The position numbers and the translations under genes were made by a program. Of a stretch of DNA of 64,000 bases, positions 5,096 through 40,563 are shown in pieces. Location of the stretch: contig JABSRN010000002.1 in assembly GCA_013214025.1 (NCBI GenBank), forward strand, positions 62,001 through 126,000, written 5' to 3'. The number at the start of each line of letters is the position of its first letter. Positions within the stretch are counted from its first letter, which is position 1. The DNA comes from Polyangiaceae bacterium (GTDB lineage: Bacteria; Myxococcota_A; Polyangia; Polyangiales; Polyangiaceae). The notes beneath the pieces are model-generated. The model was not told the DNA's origin. It saw nothing but the letters and a program-made list of their open reading frames with translations, and ran no database searches.

Positions 5096-6583
5096 TCAAG
5101 GGGCGTCGCCGTCAGTCGGATCAGCGGGCGGCACGCCGTTCCGGCGCTCCCGTAGCTGGCGCTGGAGCGATTGAATCGCCCCCATGATGTCGCGGAAGTC
5201 GAGCAGCAGGAGCCCCCCGACATAGGCGAGCAGAAGTGCCACTTGTACGAGCCAGCTGAGCTGTTGTCCGACGCATACGCAGCCGGCGACCATGAAGAGC
5301 ACCGCTACAGCCTTGCCGAACTTGAACGGCACGCGCCGGGTACGGCGGGCGAGAATCCATCCGCCTAGCGCCAGTAGGCAGGTGGAACAAAGCGTGGAAT
5401 AGGCTGCTCCCATCATGCCCCACTGGGGCACAAAATGCTGGTTGAGCCCGATGTTGATGATGGCAGGGGGAATGGAAACGAAGGCGATCAGGCGGGTCGC
5501 GCTCGTCTTGCTAAATATGACGGCCGAAGCGACCAGGTTGTACGCCTGAACGAAACCCGCGAGCGCGAGTATGCTGATCACAGGAATCGCGCTTGCGTAG
5601 TCGGCATTGCTTGCGAGACCCACGAGAAGGGGCGCGCTGAAGGCGGTTGCGATGGTCACGGCACCGATGGCAGCGATGGAAAAGAAGGAGAGGCGTCGTA
5701 CCGCGTCCCAGCCGGTCACGGCTTCGTCACGGACCTGGTTGAGGAAGAACGGGGTCCAGGCGCGGTGCATGCCTATGGCGAACACCGTTACGACCGACGC
5801 CAGATTGGCAGCTAGTGTGTATCTTCCGACCTCAGCCAAGCCTGGCCCGGCGGCGAGGGCTACGCGATCGGCGCTTTGCAGCAGGATCCCGGAAAGTGCG
5901 TGGGGCACGATTGGCAAGCCATAGATAAGGCTCTTTTTGAGTATCTCCGGATTCAGCTCGATACGGCTGCCGGTTGGTAGCTTGCGGAACGCTAACACCG
6001 TCCCTCCGAGGAAAGAGAGACTGATAGCGATCAGCAGGCCGTGGGCACCCCACCCCAGGGCAACGACGAACACACCGACTCCCGCCAACAGAAACCCCCA
6101 GCGTTGGAGGTTGAGCTTCGTGTACTCGGCCGCTTGTTGGCGGAGGCGGACGCTTGCCAGCCCCACCTCGAACATCGCCATCGTCATGACCGCGCTGAGC
6201 GCTGCTATTCCGATGGGCCACAGGGGAAGGTCATCCAGAAAAGGCTTGAGCAGGGGCCACAGCAGAGCCACCCCAGAACTGAGAACGAGCCCAGCGACTC
6301 CAACGTAGGTGAACAGCGAGCCAGTGAGCGTCGCTTGATGTTTGGAATCCGGGGAATCGAGGATCCCCATCTTCAGAAGTGCAGGCCCTTGCCCGGCCAT
6401 CGCTAGAATCATCAGCAGCTGCGCCAGCTGTTTTAGGATACCGATGGCGCCGTACTCGGTGGTGGTGAGGAACGCCGTGTAGACCGGAATCAACAAGAAG
6501 TTGCCCCCGCGCATCAGCACGGTGCCCAACATGTAGGTCGCGCTCTGGGCCATTAGGCGCACGCCAGCAGAGGAGCCCGACAT
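5096..6583 (-). CDS. Wzx-like oligosaccharide flippase (MATE/MVF superfamily membrane protein)
   Basis: A 495-residue, strongly hydrophobic protein with about 12-14 predicted membrane helices. It begins with the typical Wzx entry LMAQSATYMLGTVLMRGGNFLLIPVYTAFLT, followed by TTEYGAIGILKQL. Proteins of this type move lipid-linked repeat units across the inner membrane. A short basic tail (LQRQLRERRNG) ends the protein. Its ATG overlaps the TGA of the upstream glycosyltransferase by one base (TGATG), so the two are coupled. Gene order with a glycosyltransferase, pyruvyl transferase and nonulosonate genes supports export of a surface glycan. Confidence 0.88.
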   Translation of the reverse strand: MSGSSAGVRLMAQSATYMLGTVLMRGGNFLLIPVYTAFLTTTEYGAIGILKQLAQLLMILAMAGQGPALLKMGILDSPDSKHQATLTGSLFTYVGVAGLVLSSGVALLWPLLKPFLDDLPLWPIGIAALSAVMTMAMFEVGLASVRLRQQAAEYTKLNLQRWGFLLAGVGVFVVALGWGAHGLLIAISLSFLGGTVLAFRKLPTGSRIELNPEILKKSLIYGLPIVPHALSGILLQSADRVALAAGPGLAEVGRYTLAANLASVVTVFAIGMHRAWTPFFLNQVRDEAVTGWDAVRRLSFFSIAAIGAVTIATAFSAPLLVGLASNADYASAIPVISILALAGFVQAYNLVASAVIFSKTSATRLIAFVSIPPAIINIGLNQHFVPQWGMMGAAYSTLCSTCLLALGGWILARRTRRVPFKFGKAVAVLFMVAGCVCVGQQLSWLVQVALLLAYVGGLLLLDFRDIMGAIQSLQRQLRERRNGVPPADPTDGDAP

Positions 6584-16974: not shown

Positions 16975-17001
16975 GTCGTCGACTTGACGCCGGAAACCGC
17001 A

Positions 17002-17046
17002 GGAGCGCGAGCTCCGAGGACGCCGCAGCCGCATAGCGGCGAGGAC
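17002..17046. repeat. Two short hairpin-GAGGAC modules
   Basis: Two consecutive units of the form small hairpin followed by GAGGAC. The first is GGAGC-gcga-GCTCC-GAGGAC (17002-17021). The second is GCCGC-ata-GCGGC-GAGGAC (17028-17046). The same design, with different but still base-paired stems, recurs in the repeat field at 38.8-39.1 kb. The units lie in the convergent gap after the protease gene. Confidence 0.6.
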
Positions 17047-17184
17047 CTAAGAGAAAACTCCAGTAGAGCCAGAGCGGTGTGAAGCCCGACATGCAGGACT
17101 GAGCACGTCGACTTAACACCGGAGTCGCCGAAGGCGCGACGCCGGGCGAGGGGGGGGAAATGACCAGCGGTTCACTCCGGCTCG

Positions 17185-17234
17185 TTCAATATCCAAGCAG
17201 CCGGCTACTTGTAGCCGGCTGCTTGGATATTGAA
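17185..17234. repeat. Perfect 24-bp inverted repeat with 2-nt loop, folding back the end of the ABC exporter gene
   Basis: The left arm (17185-17208) and right arm (17211-17234) are exact reverse complements around TT. The right arm is the last coding part of the ABC exporter on the minus strand (codons FNIQAAGY) and the left arm mirrors it beyond the stop. It could act as a terminator-like hairpin for the leftward transcript, though no U-tract follows. It could also be a foldback copy made by template switching, or an assembly artefact. Confidence 0.75.
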
Positions 17235-19040
17235 GAGCTTTGCGTAGTGGCCGTCGTGATCCATTAACTGCTCGTGGCTGCCCTCTTCCAGGATCCGGCC
17301 GTCGTTGAGTACGACGATTTGCTCCGCCATGCGCACGGTAGAAAATCGGTGGGATATGAGTATGGCCATCTGGCTTTTGGTGACATCGCGGAAGTGATCG
17401 AAGATACGCGCCTCGGCAGCGGCATCCATGCTCGCAGTGGGTTCGTCCAGCACGAGAATGTCCGCGTCTTCTTTCATGAAGGCTCGGGACAGGGCGATTT
17501 TCTGCCACTCCCCCAGAGAGAGCTCGCGACCATTGCGGAACCAGCGTCCGAGCTGGGTCTGATACTGGGAGGGCAACTGGTCGATGAAGGAATCGGCCAT
17601 GCCCTTTTTGGCGGCGGTTTCCCAGTTCTGGGCGTTTTGCATCTCGTCCGCATCGCCGGCGCCGATGTTTTCGCCCACCGTGAACTGATAACGCACGAAG
17701 TCTTGAAAGATCACCGCCGTGCGGCGGCGCAGGGCCGCGACATCCCACTCTTGTAGATCTTTTCCGTCTAGGAGGATGCGCCCGGAGCTTGGGGAGTACA
17801 GTCGGGTGAGCAGTTTCACGAGGGTGGTCTTGCCGGAGCCGTTCTCGCCGACGACCGCTAGTTTGTGCCCTGGTTGAAGGTGAAAACTGACGCCTTTTAC
17901 CGCGGGTGTCTCCGAACCTGGGTACACGAAGCTGACATCCTCGAAGCGAATACCGTCTCGGGGTGTGGGTCCCGAAGTGATGGTACCGGATGTGCTGATG
18001 ACGTCCTCTTCCAAGAACTCGTAGAGATTCGAAAGGTACAGATTGTCTTCGTACATGCCACCGACGGCACCGAGGGCGGCGGCCAGTGCTTGTTGACCCT
18101 GCTTGAAGACCAATACATACATGGTCATCTCGCCGAGACTGATCTGTCCGTTGACGGCGGCGTAGACGATCCACGCGTAGGCTCCGTAGAAGGCGCCGGT
18201 GGCGAGCAGACCGAGGAAGTATCCCCACACGCCGCGGCGCAGCGTCAGGCTGCGGTCTTTGGCGTACAGTCGATGAAAGATCGCGTTGTAGCGCTTGAGC
18301 AGGATCGCACCGAGATCGAAGAGTTTGACCTCCTTGGCGTAATCCTCGCGCGCGATGACCGCTTCGAGATACATCTGCTGGCGGGTCTCTGGCGTGCGCC
18401 AGCGGAATAGTCGGAACGCTTCGCCGGAATACTTCGCTTCGGCAATGAAGGCCGGCACCGCAGCGACAGCCAGCAAGCCCACGGCGAGCGCCGAGAACTG
18501 GAGCAGCAGCGCGCCATAGGTGACGAGGGAGAGCATATTCTGCGCGAGTCCGAAGGTTCGCATCACCAAGCTCAGCGGTCGAGAGGAAGCCTCCCGGCGC
18601 GCTTGCGTCAACTTGTCGTAGAGCTCGGAGTCCTCGAAGTGCGTGAGCTCGAGGGTGAGTGCTTTCTCCAAAATGAGCACGTTGACGCGATTGCCGAGCT
18701 GGGCCCGCAGCAGCGACTGACAAATGCCCACGCCTCGCATACAGCCCGCGGCCAACACAACCAAGGTGGCTTCGATGCTGACGTAAAAGAACGCCAGTTC
18801 GCGGTCGACTTCCGCTTGATGTGCCGCGGCACTGACCACGGCGTCCACCAACCATTTGCCGACGTAGGCGATGCCCGCCGGTAATATACCGCTGGCGATA
18901 CTCAACACCACGAGCGCGAGGGTCAACGCACGGCTGGTGGTCCAGACCAATTGCAGCGCCCGACCGCTGTACTGAAACACCCCGAAAAATTCCCGGATGG
19001 GCTGGCGCGGTCCAGACCTCGGTTCCGGCGGGGGAGTCAT
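17205..19040 (-). CDS. ABC transporter, fused membrane and ATP-binding domains
   Basis: 611 residues: an ABC_membrane exporter domain (about residues 20-330, six helices, first one LTLALVVLSIASGILPAGIAYVG) followed by the nucleotide-binding domain. Visible are Walker A GENGSGKTTLVKLL, Q-loop VIFQDFVRYQF, a variant signature ELSLGEWQ (LSLGE for LSGGQ), Walker B ILVLDEPTASMD and H-loop ISHRFSTVRMA. No C39 peptidase domain is present. A half-transporter, expected to work as a homodimer exporting an unknown substrate. It is divergent from a LytTR regulator, and three direct repeats sit between them, so transcriptional control by that regulator is likely (inference). The gene ends TAG inside a perfect palindrome. 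Confidence 0.92.
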   Translation of the reverse strand: MTPPPEPRSGPRQPIREFFGVFQYSGRALQLVWTTSRALTLALVVLSIASGILPAGIAYVGKWLVDAVVSAAAHQAEVDRELAFFYVSIEATLVVLAAGCMRGVGICQSLLRAQLGNRVNVLILEKALTLELTHFEDSELYDKLTQARREASSRPLSLVMRTFGLAQNMLSLVTYGALLLQFSALAVGLLAVAAVPAFIAEAKYSGEAFRLFRWRTPETRQQMYLEAVIAREDYAKEVKLFDLGAILLKRYNAIFHRLYAKDRSLTLRRGVWGYFLGLLATGAFYGAYAWIVYAAVNGQISLGEMTMYVLVFKQGQQALAAALGAVGGMYEDNLYLSNLYEFLEEDVISTSGTITSGPTPRDGIRFEDVSFVYPGSETPAVKGVSFHLQPGHKLAVVGENGSGKTTLVKLLTRLYSPSSGRILLDGKDLQEWDVAALRRRTAVIFQDFVRYQFTVGENIGAGDADEMQNAQNWETAAKKGMADSFIDQLPSQYQTQLGRWFRNGRELSLGEWQKIALSRAFMKEDADILVLDEPTASMDAAAEARIFDHFRDVTKSQMAILISHRFSTVRMAEQIVVLNDGRILEEGSHEQLMDHDGHYAKLFNIQAAGYK

Positions 19041-36625: not shown

Positions 36626-38464
36626 GTGGGAAGACTGGCATGGATTTGTTGTCTGGGCGTCATCAGCACGTCCCAGCTCGGGTGCGAGGGACGCGAGCGG
36701 ATCGAATCGCTGCAGTCAGTCAAGAGCGATAAGGGCTCAGCCCAATCCGACGATTCCTCAGAAGATGGCGATCTGCTCGAGTTTGATTTGACCGCCGGCG
36801 CTCCCGAGTCACCGGCAAACAATCCGCTATTCGCCCAACCGGCTTCCCGTACTTTCGTCGGTCTGGTCCGCGCTGTCGAGCGCGCCCAAAAGAACGAAAA
36901 GGTCAAAGGCGCGTTCATTCGATTTGGTTCGGACAGTATGGATTGGGCTCGAAGCGAGGAGTTAGGTCGCAATTTCGCGGCCTTCCGAAAATCTGGGAAG
37001 TTTGTCGCGTGTCACGCTAACTCGCTATCGAATAAGAGCGTGTGGCTAGCGGCCCACGCCTGCGATGAAATATGGCTCAGCCCCGCTGGGGAGGTGGACA
37101 CTGTGGGCATCGCGGGCCAGGTCATTTATCTGCGTGGTGTGCTCGACAAGTTCAAGATCCGAGCGGACTTCCTCAAGATGGGTCGATACAAGAGTGCGGC
37201 GGAGACGATGACTCGCACGGGACCGACGCCGGAGGCCCGGGAGTCCTTGGTCGGCGTGCTCGCGAGCATTCGTGGCACCTGGTTGGACAGCATGGTCAGG
37301 GTGCGATCTGACGCTGGCATCAAGAAAGCATTAGAAGACGGGCCCTGGGACGCGAACGGCGCGAAACAACAAGGGCTGATCGATAAGATCGGATACGCCT
37401 CGCAAGCTCGCGAGGCCATCAAAGAACGATTGGGTGCGACCAAGGTTCGCTCCGGATTCGGCGCTAGTGAAAAGGGCTTGAATATCGCTAGCATTATTCG
37501 GTCCCTAGCGGGATCGGACCTCGGCGAAGACGGGGCGGATTCTATCGCTGTGCTGGCGGCTCAGGGTGCCATCTCCATGAAGGCGGGGGGCGTGATGTCG
37601 AGTGGTGGGATTGTGGCCAGTTCGATCACCAAGACTATCCGGCGACTCGCCAAGGACAAGTCGGTCAAGGCGGTGGTCTTGCGCATCGATTCACCGGGTG
37701 GCTCTGCGCTGGCGAGCGATCTCATCTGGCATGAGTTGATGGAGCTTCGGAAGAAGAAACCGCTCATCGCATCGGTTGGAGATATGGCGGCGAGTGGCGG
37801 CTATTATCTCGCATGCGCCGCAGACAAGATCGTGGCGGAACGAACGAGCATTGTGGGTTCTATTGGCGTGGTCGGAGGCAAAATTGTCATTGGGGAGGCT
37901 TTGCGTGAGTTCGGCATCAACACGGTGACTTTCAGCGCTGATCCGAACACGGATGCCGGTGCGATCCCTCGGGGCGCGTATATGTCCGCCCTCACACCCT
38001 GGGACCCCGCCACCCGCGCGAAGGTGCAGACTCAGATGGAAAGCATCTACGAGTTGTTTCTCGCTCGAGTGGCGAGCGGCCGTCGCACCCCCGTCGACGA
38101 GATTCGAAAGATAGCTGAAGGGCGAATTTGGTCTGGCACCCAGGGCTTGAAACGAAATCTGGTGGATAAGCTCGGAGGTGTGAGCGCTGCGATCGCTTTG
38201 GCGCGGACCCAGGCGGATCTGCCGGAGGATGCTCCGGTGCGTTTGGAAGGGGCGAGCGAAAGTTTGCTCGAACGGCTATTTCTGACGGGGGACGAAACCG
38301 CCGAAGACGACGTCCGGCTCGTCCTTCGCCGTTTTGAGGCATCGCGCTCTGAGCTGCTGGAGATACTGCCTACCGATCTCCGGGCCTTTGTTGGCAGCTT
38401 CGGTCCGCTGGCGGACGGCGAGCGCGTGCTCACCGCCCTCCCGCTCGGCCTGCGAATCCACTGA
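36626..38464 (+). CDS. sppA: Signal peptide peptidase SppA, 67K type
   Basis: 612 residues, GTG start at 36626, one base after the preceding stop. N-terminal GVISTSQLGCEG looks like a lipoprotein or signal anchor. The two tandem S49 domains are present. The first contains LKMGRYKSAAE (general-base Lys). The second contains RIDSPGGSALASDLIWHEL and GDMAASGGYYLACAADKIVA (nucleophile Ser in MAASGGY), followed by GSIGVVGGKI. This matches long SppA, which degrades cleaved signal peptides in the inner membrane. Residue positions near 190 (Lys) and 390 (Ser) agree with the family. Coupled to the zinc-ribbon/TPR gene, so a shared envelope role is likely. Confidence 0.93.
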   Translation: MGRLAWICCLGVISTSQLGCEGRERIESLQSVKSDKGSAQSDDSSEDGDLLEFDLTAGAPESPANNPLFAQPASRTFVGLVRAVERAQKNEKVKGAFIRFGSDSMDWARSEELGRNFAAFRKSGKFVACHANSLSNKSVWLAAHACDEIWLSPAGEVDTVGIAGQVIYLRGVLDKFKIRADFLKMGRYKSAAETMTRTGPTPEARESLVGVLASIRGTWLDSMVRVRSDAGIKKALEDGPWDANGAKQQGLIDKIGYASQAREAIKERLGATKVRSGFGASEKGLNIASIIRSLAGSDLGEDGADSIAVLAAQGAISMKAGGVMSSGGIVASSITKTIRRLAKDKSVKAVVLRIDSPGGSALASDLIWHELMELRKKKPLIASVGDMAASGGYYLACAADKIVAERTSIVGSIGVVGGKIVIGEALREFGINTVTFSADPNTDAGAIPRGAYMSALTPWDPATRAKVQTQMESIYELFLARVASGRRTPVDEIRKIAEGRIWSGTQGLKRNLVDKLGGVSAAIALARTQADLPEDAPVRLEGASESLLERLFLTGDETAEDDVRLVLRRFEASRSELLEILPTDLRAFVGSFGPLADGERVLTALPLGLRIH

Positions 38465-38512
38465 ACGTCCGATAAATCCCGGAATTCCTGATACTTAAGC
38501 CAGCAATTAGCC

Positions 38513-38540
38513 TTGACGGAAAACCTCCGCTAGGTAGGTT
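38513..38540 (+). promoter_or_regulatory. Sigma70-like promoter of tRNA-Ser
   Basis: TTGACG (38513-38518), 16 bases, then TAGGTT (38535-38540), 13 bases before the tRNA 5' end. The GC-rich stretch after the -10 (CCCGCAG) is typical of stringently controlled stable-RNA promoters. Confidence 0.55.
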
Positions 38541-38553
38541 CCCGCAGCCACTT

Positions 38554-38689
<136 letters not shown>

Positions 38690-38710
38690 TCCGTCTGACG
38701 AGCCCCTGTC

Positions 38711-38770
38711 GGATCGCTGCGTCACCCGCACCCCCATTTGGGTGAGGGTGCGGGTGACTTCGCTCGATCC
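38711..38770. repeat. Second long hairpin downstream of tRNA-Ser
   Basis: GTCACCCGCACCC (38721-38733) pairs with GGGTGCGGGTGAC (38746-38758). An outer GGATCG (38711-38716) pairs with CGATCC further right after a small internal bulge. The apex contains CCCATTTGGG, which can pair further. No T-run follows, so a terminator role is uncertain. Confidence 0.65.
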
Positions 38771-38805
38771 GCGGCAGTGAGGCTCTGACGGAGTTGTTTG
38801 TTGGG

Positions 38806-39113
38806 GTCCTCGACTCCCTTGGGGAGTCTGCGGCGTCCTCGACTCCCTTGGGGAGTCTGCGGTGGTCCTCGCTGCTTTGCAGCATTGGTGTCCTCGCTGC
38901 GCTGCGGTTTGTCACCGCAGCGCAGCGAGGACACCAATGCTGCAAAGCAGCGAGGACCACCGCAGACTCCCCAAGGGAGTCGAGGACAAACCGCAGCGCA
39001 GCGAGGACACCAATGCTGCAAAGCAGCGAGGACCACCGCAGACTCCCCAAGGGAGTCGAGGACAAACCGCAGCGCAGCGAGGACACCAATGCTGCAAAGC
39101 AGCGAGGACCACT
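38806..39113. repeat. Palindromic repeat field: 76-bp units as one 73-bp inverted pair plus tandem copies
   Basis: A 76-bp unit occurs rightward from about 38912, 38988 and 39064 (the third stops near 39113). It occurs once leftward at 38835-38910, preceded by a 29-bp partial leftward copy at 38806. The leftward copy and first rightward copy form a perfect 73-bp inverted repeat (38835-38907 and 38915-38987) around a 7-nt loop. Each unit has sub-hairpins GCTGC-aaa-GCAGC and GACTCCC-caa-GGGAGTC, both followed directly by GAGGAC. All six frames are open through it because the unit lacks stops; these are not genes. It sits between tRNA-Ser and the hydrolase gene. Confidence 0.9.
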
Positions 39114-39140
39114 TGTCTGGGGAGTCGGGTAGGGTGGGGG

Positions 39141-40094
39141 ATGCACATTGTTGACCCCGTACGTGTAGCGCTTCCGGATGTTTCGCTATCTGTGCATCAG
39201 CAGGGTGAAGGGTTTCCTGTGGTCCTGTGTCATGGCTTTCCGGAGCTGGCTTGTTCTTGGCGGCACCAGATCACAGCATTGGCCGAGGCTGGGTATCGGG
39301 TGATCGCTCCGGACATGCGGGGGTACGGCGCTAGTGATTGTCCGGCCGGGGTTGAGGCCTATGGGATGAAACAACTCGCTGGCGACATGGTGGCGTTGCT
39401 AGACGCCCTGGATCTCGAGAAGGCTGTGTTTGCGGGTCACGATTGGGGCGGCTTTGTGGCTTGGGCGATGCCGGTGCTGCATCCGGAACGCACGGCTGGA
39501 GTCATTGGGGTGAACACGCCCTATATGCCGTTTCCGTCTACCGCGTTTCTTCAGGCGACGTTCCAGAATCCAGAAGACATGTACATTCTGTGGTTTCAAG
39601 AGCCCGGCACAGCCGAGGCCTTTATGGATCAACACACCGCGCTAATTTTCGACAAGCTCATGCGAGATAGCGAGCGAAAGAGTGACCACACCCCGGCGGA
39701 CATCAGCGCTGGTGGGCAGTTCAATCCCTTCTTGAATATCGTGGAGCTGCCGGAGATGGGGGCGCCGTTGCTCTCTACGGCGGAGCTCGCGTACTACACG
39801 GCGGCTTTTCAAAGGAGCGGCTTCGCCAGCGCCATCAACTGGTACCGCAATATAGACGCAAATTGCGCGAACTATCCGACGCTGGGCTTTGCGCCGCTGG
39901 AGTTGCCGTGCCTCATGGTGACCGCCGAACGGGACCGAGCGTTGCCCCCCGTGATGGCGCAGTCCATGCCAGAGCGTGTCTCAGATCTGGAGATGCACAT
40001 GATCAAGGGCTGCGGGCACTGGACGCAGCAGGAGAAGCCGGAGGAACTAAACCGACTGATGCTTGATTTCCTGCAGAGGTGTTTTCCCAGCTGA
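39141..40094 (+). CDS. Alpha/beta hydrolase, epoxide-hydrolase type
   Basis: 317 residues from ATG 39141. The frame is open back to 38862, but that part is the repeat field and is rejected. Motifs: VVLCHGFPELACSWRHQI (HGxP oxyanion hole), VFAGHDWGGFVAWAM (nucleophile Asp in GHDWGG), TAERDRALPP (acid) and IKGCGHWTQQEKPEEL (catalytic His). Cap-domain residues NWYRNI and GQFNP are like soluble epoxide hydrolases. It hydrolyses an epoxide or ester of unknown origin. No operon partner; the following gene is a broken ExbD on the opposite strand. Confidence 0.9.
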   Translation: MHIVDPVRVALPDVSLSVHQQGEGFPVVLCHGFPELACSWRHQITALAEAGYRVIAPDMRGYGASDCPAGVEAYGMKQLAGDMVALLDALDLEKAVFAGHDWGGFVAWAMPVLHPERTAGVIGVNTPYMPFPSTAFLQATFQNPEDMYILWFQEPGTAEAFMDQHTALIFDKLMRDSERKSDHTPADISAGGQFNPFLNIVELPEMGAPLLSTAELAYYTAAFQRSGFASAINWYRNIDANCANYPTLGFAPLELPCLMVTAERDRALPPVMAQSMPERVSDLEMHMIKGCGHWTQQEKPEELNRLMLDFLQRCFPS

Positions 40095-40098
40095 GAGC

Positions 40099-40530
40099 TC
40101 AGTTCATCGCCGAGCTCGCGGCAAAGGTGGAGCTGCCAGCGCGAGTCTTGACTGATGAAATGACATCGATCACGGTAATGACGTGCTCGTAGGAGAGGTC
40201 GTTCGCCGCGTACACGACGGCAGCACTCCGGATGTCTACGTCGTTGTGGGCGTTCCATTCCGCGCTGAGCTCGGCTCCGAGCGCGGCACCGTTCTCGGGG
40301 AGGGGTTGGTGATTTAGCTTCCGGGAGTGGACGACGACGCCGCCTTGTTTTCAGCGCACGGCGACGCCCCGGGAGTCGGCTTCAACGTGCATGGTTAGCC
40401 CTGGGGGCTCAGCCATGGTCGCCGAGTCGCCGATGACTTGAGCTGCAGCGTCCAATCGCGCCATGTCGGTCCAAACTGCTGTGACCAAGAGGGCGGCCAC
40501 TAAACACAGTAGGAAATCGATGAATGTCAT
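40099..40530 (-). pseudogene. ExbD/TolR-like protein, interrupted by in-frame TGA
   Basis: 144 codons from ATG 40530. One membrane helix near the start (MTFIDFLLCLVAALLVTAVW), then AAQVIGDSATMAEPPGLTMHVEADSRGVAVR, TGA at 40351-40353 (codon 60), then in the same frame KQGGVVVHSRKLNHQPLPENGAAL, VDIRSAAVVYAANDLSYEHV and ITVIDVISSVKT. The order of short periplasmic strands and the final VITVID helix are those of ExbD/TolR, the proton-channel partner that transmits force to outer-membrane systems. One change (CGA or TGG to TGA) explains the stop. No ExbB is in the window. The start codon lies in a 14-bp tandem triplication. Confidence 0.78.
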
Positions 40531-40563
40531 GAGTGGAATGTCATGAGTGGAATGTCATGAGTG
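40522..40563. repeat. Three tandem 14-bp repeats over the ExbD start codon
   Basis: GAATGTCATGAGTG is present three times without a gap. On the minus strand each copy supplies an ATG, but as 14 is not a multiple of three only one is in the ExbD frame. Probably a slippage expansion that also disturbed the ribosome-binding region. Confidence 0.85.

Follow-up and report, generated by a model that had tools for sequence, protein, structure and literature searches.

The window analysed here is a stretch of 64,000 nucleotides from the draft genome of a Polyangiaceae bacterium (5.77 Mb in 184 contigs, 97% complete) with a gene content of myxobacterial appearance, and statements below about the whole genome rest on searches of this draft and on 863 kb of sampled sequence. 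A tRNA-Ser (GCT) gene, found by both ARAGORN and Rfam, occupies positions 38554-38644 of the forward strand, beside the long palindrome, as the first-pass annotation had said. No other part of the window scored above the gathering score in a search with Rfam 15. Further along lies an alpha/beta-hydrolase gene whose longest frame (38862-40094) extends back through the repeat array; because the Pfam match starts at residue 119, we place the true start further downstream, probably near 39142. Downstream of the hydrolase gene, a 14-bp unit (GAATGTCATGAGTG) is repeated three times in perfect tandem at 40522-40563.

The 3' end of the tRNA gene forms part of a 26-bp perfect hairpin with a loop of 3 (38635-38689, here hp0), which the first-pass annotation had not recorded. 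Its left arm consists of the last 10 nt of the tRNA-Ser gene and a short trailer, and its right arm is the inverted copy of these. The copy stops at 38689, and at 38690 begins the head of a repeat element (38690-38792, forward strand), in which an outer stem formed by 38690-38704 (TCCGTCTGACGAGCC) and 38781-38792 (GGCTCTGACGGA) surrounds a hairpin at 38721-38758. Homologues of this head are dispersed in the genome. Next on the same strand come hairpin module H1 (38806-38834; GTCCTCG, stem ACTCCC/GGGAGT, foot CTGCGG) and a segment, 38835-38913, made up of modules H1b, H2 and H3 and the pentanucleotide TTGTC. A predicted fold of 38554-38689 pairs the 3' end of the tRNA-Ser with its inverted copy instead of in the acceptor stem, which could make the processing of this tRNA unusual.

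The first 74 nt of this segment (38835-38908) form the left arm of the palindrome and are 100% complementary to 38914-38987, around the 5-nt loop TTGTC. The first-pass annotation had arms of 73 bp and a 7-nt loop between the same outer limits, 38835-38987; the limits are right and the two lengths are not. Only three perfect hairpins with arms of at least 14 nt and loops of at most 10 nt are present in the window, and since the arms of the other two measure only 24 and 26 nt, a perfect match of 74 nt is far beyond chance.

All 199 bases to the right of the loop (38914-39112) turn out to be three inverted copies of the segment 38835-38913, each on the reverse strand. The first (38914-38987), which is the right arm of the palindrome, is the reverse complement of 38835-38908; the second (38985-39063) is that of the full 38835-38913; and the third (39061-39112) is that of 38862-38913. 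At both junctions, successive copies overlap by the same 3 nt, GAC. The block is edged by TTGTC, with the loop (38909-38913) on one side and a direct repeat of it (39113-39117, forward strand) on the other, while no obvious homology was seen at the first switch point. Read as direct repeats, the same 199 bases are the tandem copies of a 76-bp unit that had already been noticed beside the palindrome (2.6 units, 100% identity), and they contain a 123-bp exact direct repeat (38914-39036 and 38990-39112). Since short-read assemblies tend to collapse repeats longer than this one, the tandem copy number may be under-counted. None of the three copies differs from the template at a single base, so the array appears to be recent, in agreement with one of the suggestions of the first-pass annotation.

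The pattern is what replication template switching would be expected to leave: an intact template with exact inverted copies close to it, three of them here, and short homology at the jumps, in the form of GAC at both copy junctions and TTGTC at the boundary. In quasipalindrome and template-switch mutations (PMC7202029; PMC8794818), too, inverted copying in a single event makes or perfects the arms of a hairpin, with short matches at the jumps. Unlike those cases, the event here spans 199 nt in three rounds on one template, and similar events recur at the gene-end copies of one repeat family. One inverted duplication combined with ordinary tandem slippage would give a sequence identical to that left by three switches, and would explain it equally well. 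The predicted ancestral site, lacking the array, would run from GCGGTTTGTC directly into TGGGGAGTCGGG. In other members of the repeat family the palindrome centre corresponds to GCTGCGGTTTCTTGCAGCG, which already carries a small CTGC/GCAG hairpin, a plausible seed for the palindrome. A state without the inverted copy is seen in relatives, at both tRNA-Ser and the ABC-transporter gene discussed below, but these relatives are distant (50-66% identical in the ABC transporter).

A foldback made during assembly had been offered as one account of the palindrome, and we considered more generally that a fold-back chimera, from assembly or amplification, together with a mis-resolved repeat, might have produced the array. 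The draft is broken into 184 contigs, several of which terminate near members of the repeat family or its insertion sequences, the unit and the palindrome are unique in the genome, and the array is known from one assembly only. Against this, the array lies inside an unbroken contig of 210 kb, microhomology is present at both jumps together with a TTGTC boundary, copies that differ in sequence have an inverted layout as well (C22, C32 and C164), and similar perfect hairpins turn up elsewhere, both at the ends of other genes and in randomly sampled parts of the genome. We regard an artefact as unlikely.

A second copy of the element is present in the window on the reverse strand, with a core of two hairpin modules at 16997-17056 (a covariance-model match, G000:C97:78997-79056). 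Its host is an ABC-transporter gene (17205-19040, reverse strand) ending in ...LFNIQAAGYK*, and its hp0 (17185-17234) is a 24-bp perfect hairpin in which the 3' coding end of that gene is matched by an inverted copy of itself, with the stop codon at the loop. The three ABC-transporter homologues with a readable end (LFQLQAAGYR*, LFTLQAAGYR* and LFSLQAQGYL*) have no hairpin there. As these homologues have similar ends without the hairpin, the left arm of hp0 appears to be ancestral at this locus. Likewise, no inverted tail is present at the tRNA-Ser genes of relatives, even in two where the adjacent SppA-type gene is retained. A second tRNA-Ser of the genome is followed by a 33-bp perfect hairpin that includes its own 3' end (L255, 14835-14902; G000:C152, ~174.8-174.9 kb; also in L033), and the perfect hp0 stems at three other copies measure 20 bp (C86), 27 bp (C93) and 13 bp (C22).

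To describe the family as a whole, we aligned 19 two-module copies and built a covariance model from them. A half-element consists of a head, which abuts the 3' end of a gene, and at least two modules of the form GTCCTCG-stem-CTGCGG. The typical order begins with hp0 and an outer stem (TCCRGT...GAGCC/GGCTCTACYGGA) that encloses a GC-rich hairpin; a T-rich stretch leads to two modules, and GCAGCGTGGGGCCCC comes last. At some loci (C22, C32 and C164) two half-elements face each other in inverted orientation, and many loci appear to be single. The simple pattern of GTCCTCG, 6-30 bases and TGCGGCGTCCTCG (GTCCTCGN{6,30}TGCGGCGTCCTCG) has 21 exact matches in the genome, against one for a reversed-pattern control, and the covariance model found 37 copies at E<1e-6, with scores of 39-77 bits. 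A genome-wide count of the 76-bp unit, which the first-pass annotation had proposed as a check, has a divided outcome: the exact unit occurs only at the window locus, while its component modules occur at dozens of sites. Because the exact unit is unique, we rejected a classical interspersed repeat by itself as a description of it.

When 58 relatives from the same family or order were searched with the model, the best score was 30 bits, and the four best matches were unlike the element on inspection. Twelve matches in a scan of GTDB r220 contigs, a set that may omit this genome and very near ones, looked on inspection like chance or unrelated repeats. As far as these searches reach, the hairpin-array family is new and genome-specific, without convincing copies in the 58 related genomes. 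One Hydrogenedentota draft and one Spirochaetaceae draft contain a short, similar-looking unit in tandem (TGCGGCGTCCTCG...; L163, ~1897-1939, and L161, ~6501-6547), probably by convergence.

Copies of the element begin directly after genes and in the sense orientation, and the window copy follows a tRNA while most others follow protein genes. Upstream sequence was sufficient for this comparison in 31 copies. In 15 of them a same-strand ORF of at least 250 codons stops 88-142 nt before the core, at the start of the head, compared with 2.2% of random positions (p 3e-17), although the random positions include genic ones and the intergenic background is thus higher. With the cut-off lowered to 90 codons, the count becomes 23 of 31 against a background of 13%. 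Given the position after stop codons we considered integron attC sites, but saw no attC-type core sites by eye. Nor does the idea of an integration scar at a tRNA, raised in the first-pass annotation, fit the family: protein genes precede most copies, and the hairpin beside the tRNA holds a copy of the tRNA end in inverted rather than direct orientation. A mobile hairpin element might itself copy the neighbouring gene end, inverted, into its own terminal hairpin during insertion or upkeep, renewing its stems by fold-back copying; we rate this as improbable. If it were true, host sequence would be turned into a perfect terminator-like hairpin at each insertion, and a true copying of host gene ends at insertion would be an unusual route to such hairpins.

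The stems of the element vary greatly in sequence and remain paired. In the two-module alignment 96.5% of cells are paired, compared with 34-63% when the partners are slid, and we counted 33 two-sided stem changes and no one-sided change. Stems found in a set of 53 modules include GGCGC/GCGCC, GGAGC/GCTCC, GCTCC/GGAGC, GCGCC/GGCGC, GGCCC/GGGCC, GCCGC/GCGGC and GGTCCCC/GGGGACC, and the outer stem has the variants GGT/ACC, AGT/ACT and GTC/GAC. In the outer stem 45 of 48 cells are paired, a level reached by 0.02% of shuffles, although the kinship of the copies weakens shuffle tests. Template switching is described as both making and keeping perfect stems and multi-base compensatory changes (PMC8794818). 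The wholesale exchange of stems without intermediates is a prediction of that process (PMC8794818), although selection on RNA could yield the same result, and recombination between family copies could also account for the two-sided changes.

An alternative is that the array is a functional 3'-UTR RNA, such as a terminator or an RNA-protecting structure, in which selection on the RNA maintains the pairing of the stems. The sense position after stop codons, the strong covariation and a very stable predicted fold (z -23) are all consistent with this. The z-score, however, is inflated by the perfect inverted copies, no Rfam family matched, and a scan of 38400-39400 for terminators with a T-run was empty; the absence of one-sided changes and the long perfect hairpins also exceed what RNA pairing needs. 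(The T-run of the tRNA trailer falls within the extended hp0 stem.) We therefore consider selection on an RNA doubtful as the main explanation. For the structured RNA proposed in the first-pass annotation there is strong covariation but no Rfam family, and the covariation might also be a product of template switching.

The genome has nine genes or remnants for transposases of the Tn5 type (PF14706), several of them near copies of the element, and Tn5-type insertion sequences are found at two fixed positions in 16 of the 37 copies (L054, L042, L056, L135 and others), with an insertion-sequence end directly after the element's GGGGCCCCANCC in ten and in the head hairpin in six. Either the elements are ends of Tn5-type transposons, or they are hairpin sites that these insertion sequences prefer. 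The first possibility, extended to the whole family, would make the elements structured transposon ends and internally deleted, MITE-like derivatives, with the palindrome arising where two inverted ends meet. Inverted half-elements flanking a transposase remnant at one locus agree with this, as do the abutting ends. Yet at least two different insertion-sequence ends are seen at the two positions, which insertion into hairpin tips would explain equally well; the majority of copies have no transposase; and no target-site duplication was recognised by eye at L054. Since the exact triple inverted copying and the inverted host gene ends are also left unexplained, we think it rather unlikely that the elements are transposon ends. 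A related precedent is IS1272, which transposes by replacing inverted repeats, targeting inverted-repeat structures and making no target-site duplication (PMC5678879). The present case would be similar in having a mobile element that targets inverted-repeat structures, with no target-site duplication recognised, but the insertion sequences here are of the Tn5 type, and the arms of hp0 correspond to host gene ends, not to an inverted repeat that was replaced.

The closest resemblance is to the REPINs of Pseudomonas fluorescens SBW25, yet two defining REP features, the foot and the RAYT, fail (PMC3116915). Like REPs, REPINs and BIMEs, the element is a short extragenic palindrome with many copies per genome, at some loci in inverted pairs, with conserved parts and a variable paired interior showing compensatory changes; the 37 strong copies are dispersed and mostly near gene ends. 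Unlike them (PMC3116915), it has a multi-hairpin head and arrays of modules directly after stop codons, it has perfect inverted copies of host gene ends, and its invariant foot is GTCCTCG...C..CGG (GTCCTCG...CTGCGG), with GTAG/GGAG absent. The first-pass comparison to REP-like or BIME-like elements therefore holds in kind, for a dispersed, extragenic palindrome with inverted pairs at some loci, and not for a true REP. A search of this 97%-complete genome for the RAYT Y1 transposase (PF01797) gave no match, while control genomes gave matches, and we rejected mobilisation by a RAYT on this basis.

BOX/MITE-type repeats are modular; their hairpin units vary in number, and they may have originated as non-autonomous mobile elements. 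Likened by description, the element shares their modular composition, variable unit number and possible origin, but differs in that its stems are exchanged wholesale between copies. It is best described as a dispersed palindromic repeat that template switching has probably shaped, and belongs to no described RNA family.

From the family, its structure, its position bias, the two-sided changes and the copying pattern we infer a process of replication stalling and switching: the feature belongs to a genome-specific, dispersed hairpin-array repeat in which replication template switching probably creates and perfects palindromes. Hairpins would stall replication, and the growing strand would switch to a nearby complementary stretch, copy it and resume. 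In the window, 38835-38913 would thus have been copied three times in inverted orientation, with a 3-nt GAC/GTC match at each of the two jumps from one copy to the next, to give the 74-bp palindrome and the tandem copies. At the head edge, similar fold-back copying would have made perfect hairpins out of host gene ends, here the 3' end of tRNA-Ser. The spread of the elements was probably that of non-autonomous mobile repeats. Once transcribed, the arrays would fold into 3'-UTR structures, which might, at a guess, act as terminators or stabilisers.

On this reading, the window array would be a natural record, clean and recent, of template switching that took place repeatedly in a bacterium. The family provides dozens of natural hairpins whose arms change together without visible intermediates, so that the choice between selection on RNA and copying error becomes directly testable. 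It also cautions that covariation, when seen in a dispersed repeat, is not necessarily proof of RNA function.

Perfect hairpins appear to be more frequent in this genome generally. With arms of at least 16 nt and loops of at most 10 nt, there are nine in 799 kb outside the window and one in 800 kb from ten relatives, small counts that suggest that fold-back copies arise more often, or survive better, in this lineage. The link between element and hairpin is not exclusive: in the wider sample, many perfect hairpins are not near any copy. The first-pass annotation had noted that SbcCD usually removes such palindromes. No canonical SbcD scored above the cut-off in this genome, but neither did one in 13 of the 20 genomes searched, which makes its absence an insufficient explanation. 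We rejected the idea that the palindromes survive because SbcCD has been lost, as six sampled relatives lacking SbcD have no excess of hairpins. We also rejected perfect gene-end hairpins as a general terminator style of this genome: both examples in the window are at copies of the element, although in the wider sample, as noted, the link is not exclusive. A loopless perfect palindrome of 23 bp (L190, 2758-2803) lies across the stop codon of a 743-codon ORF with no module core near; it may be an element that has degenerated or a fold-back copy of independent origin.
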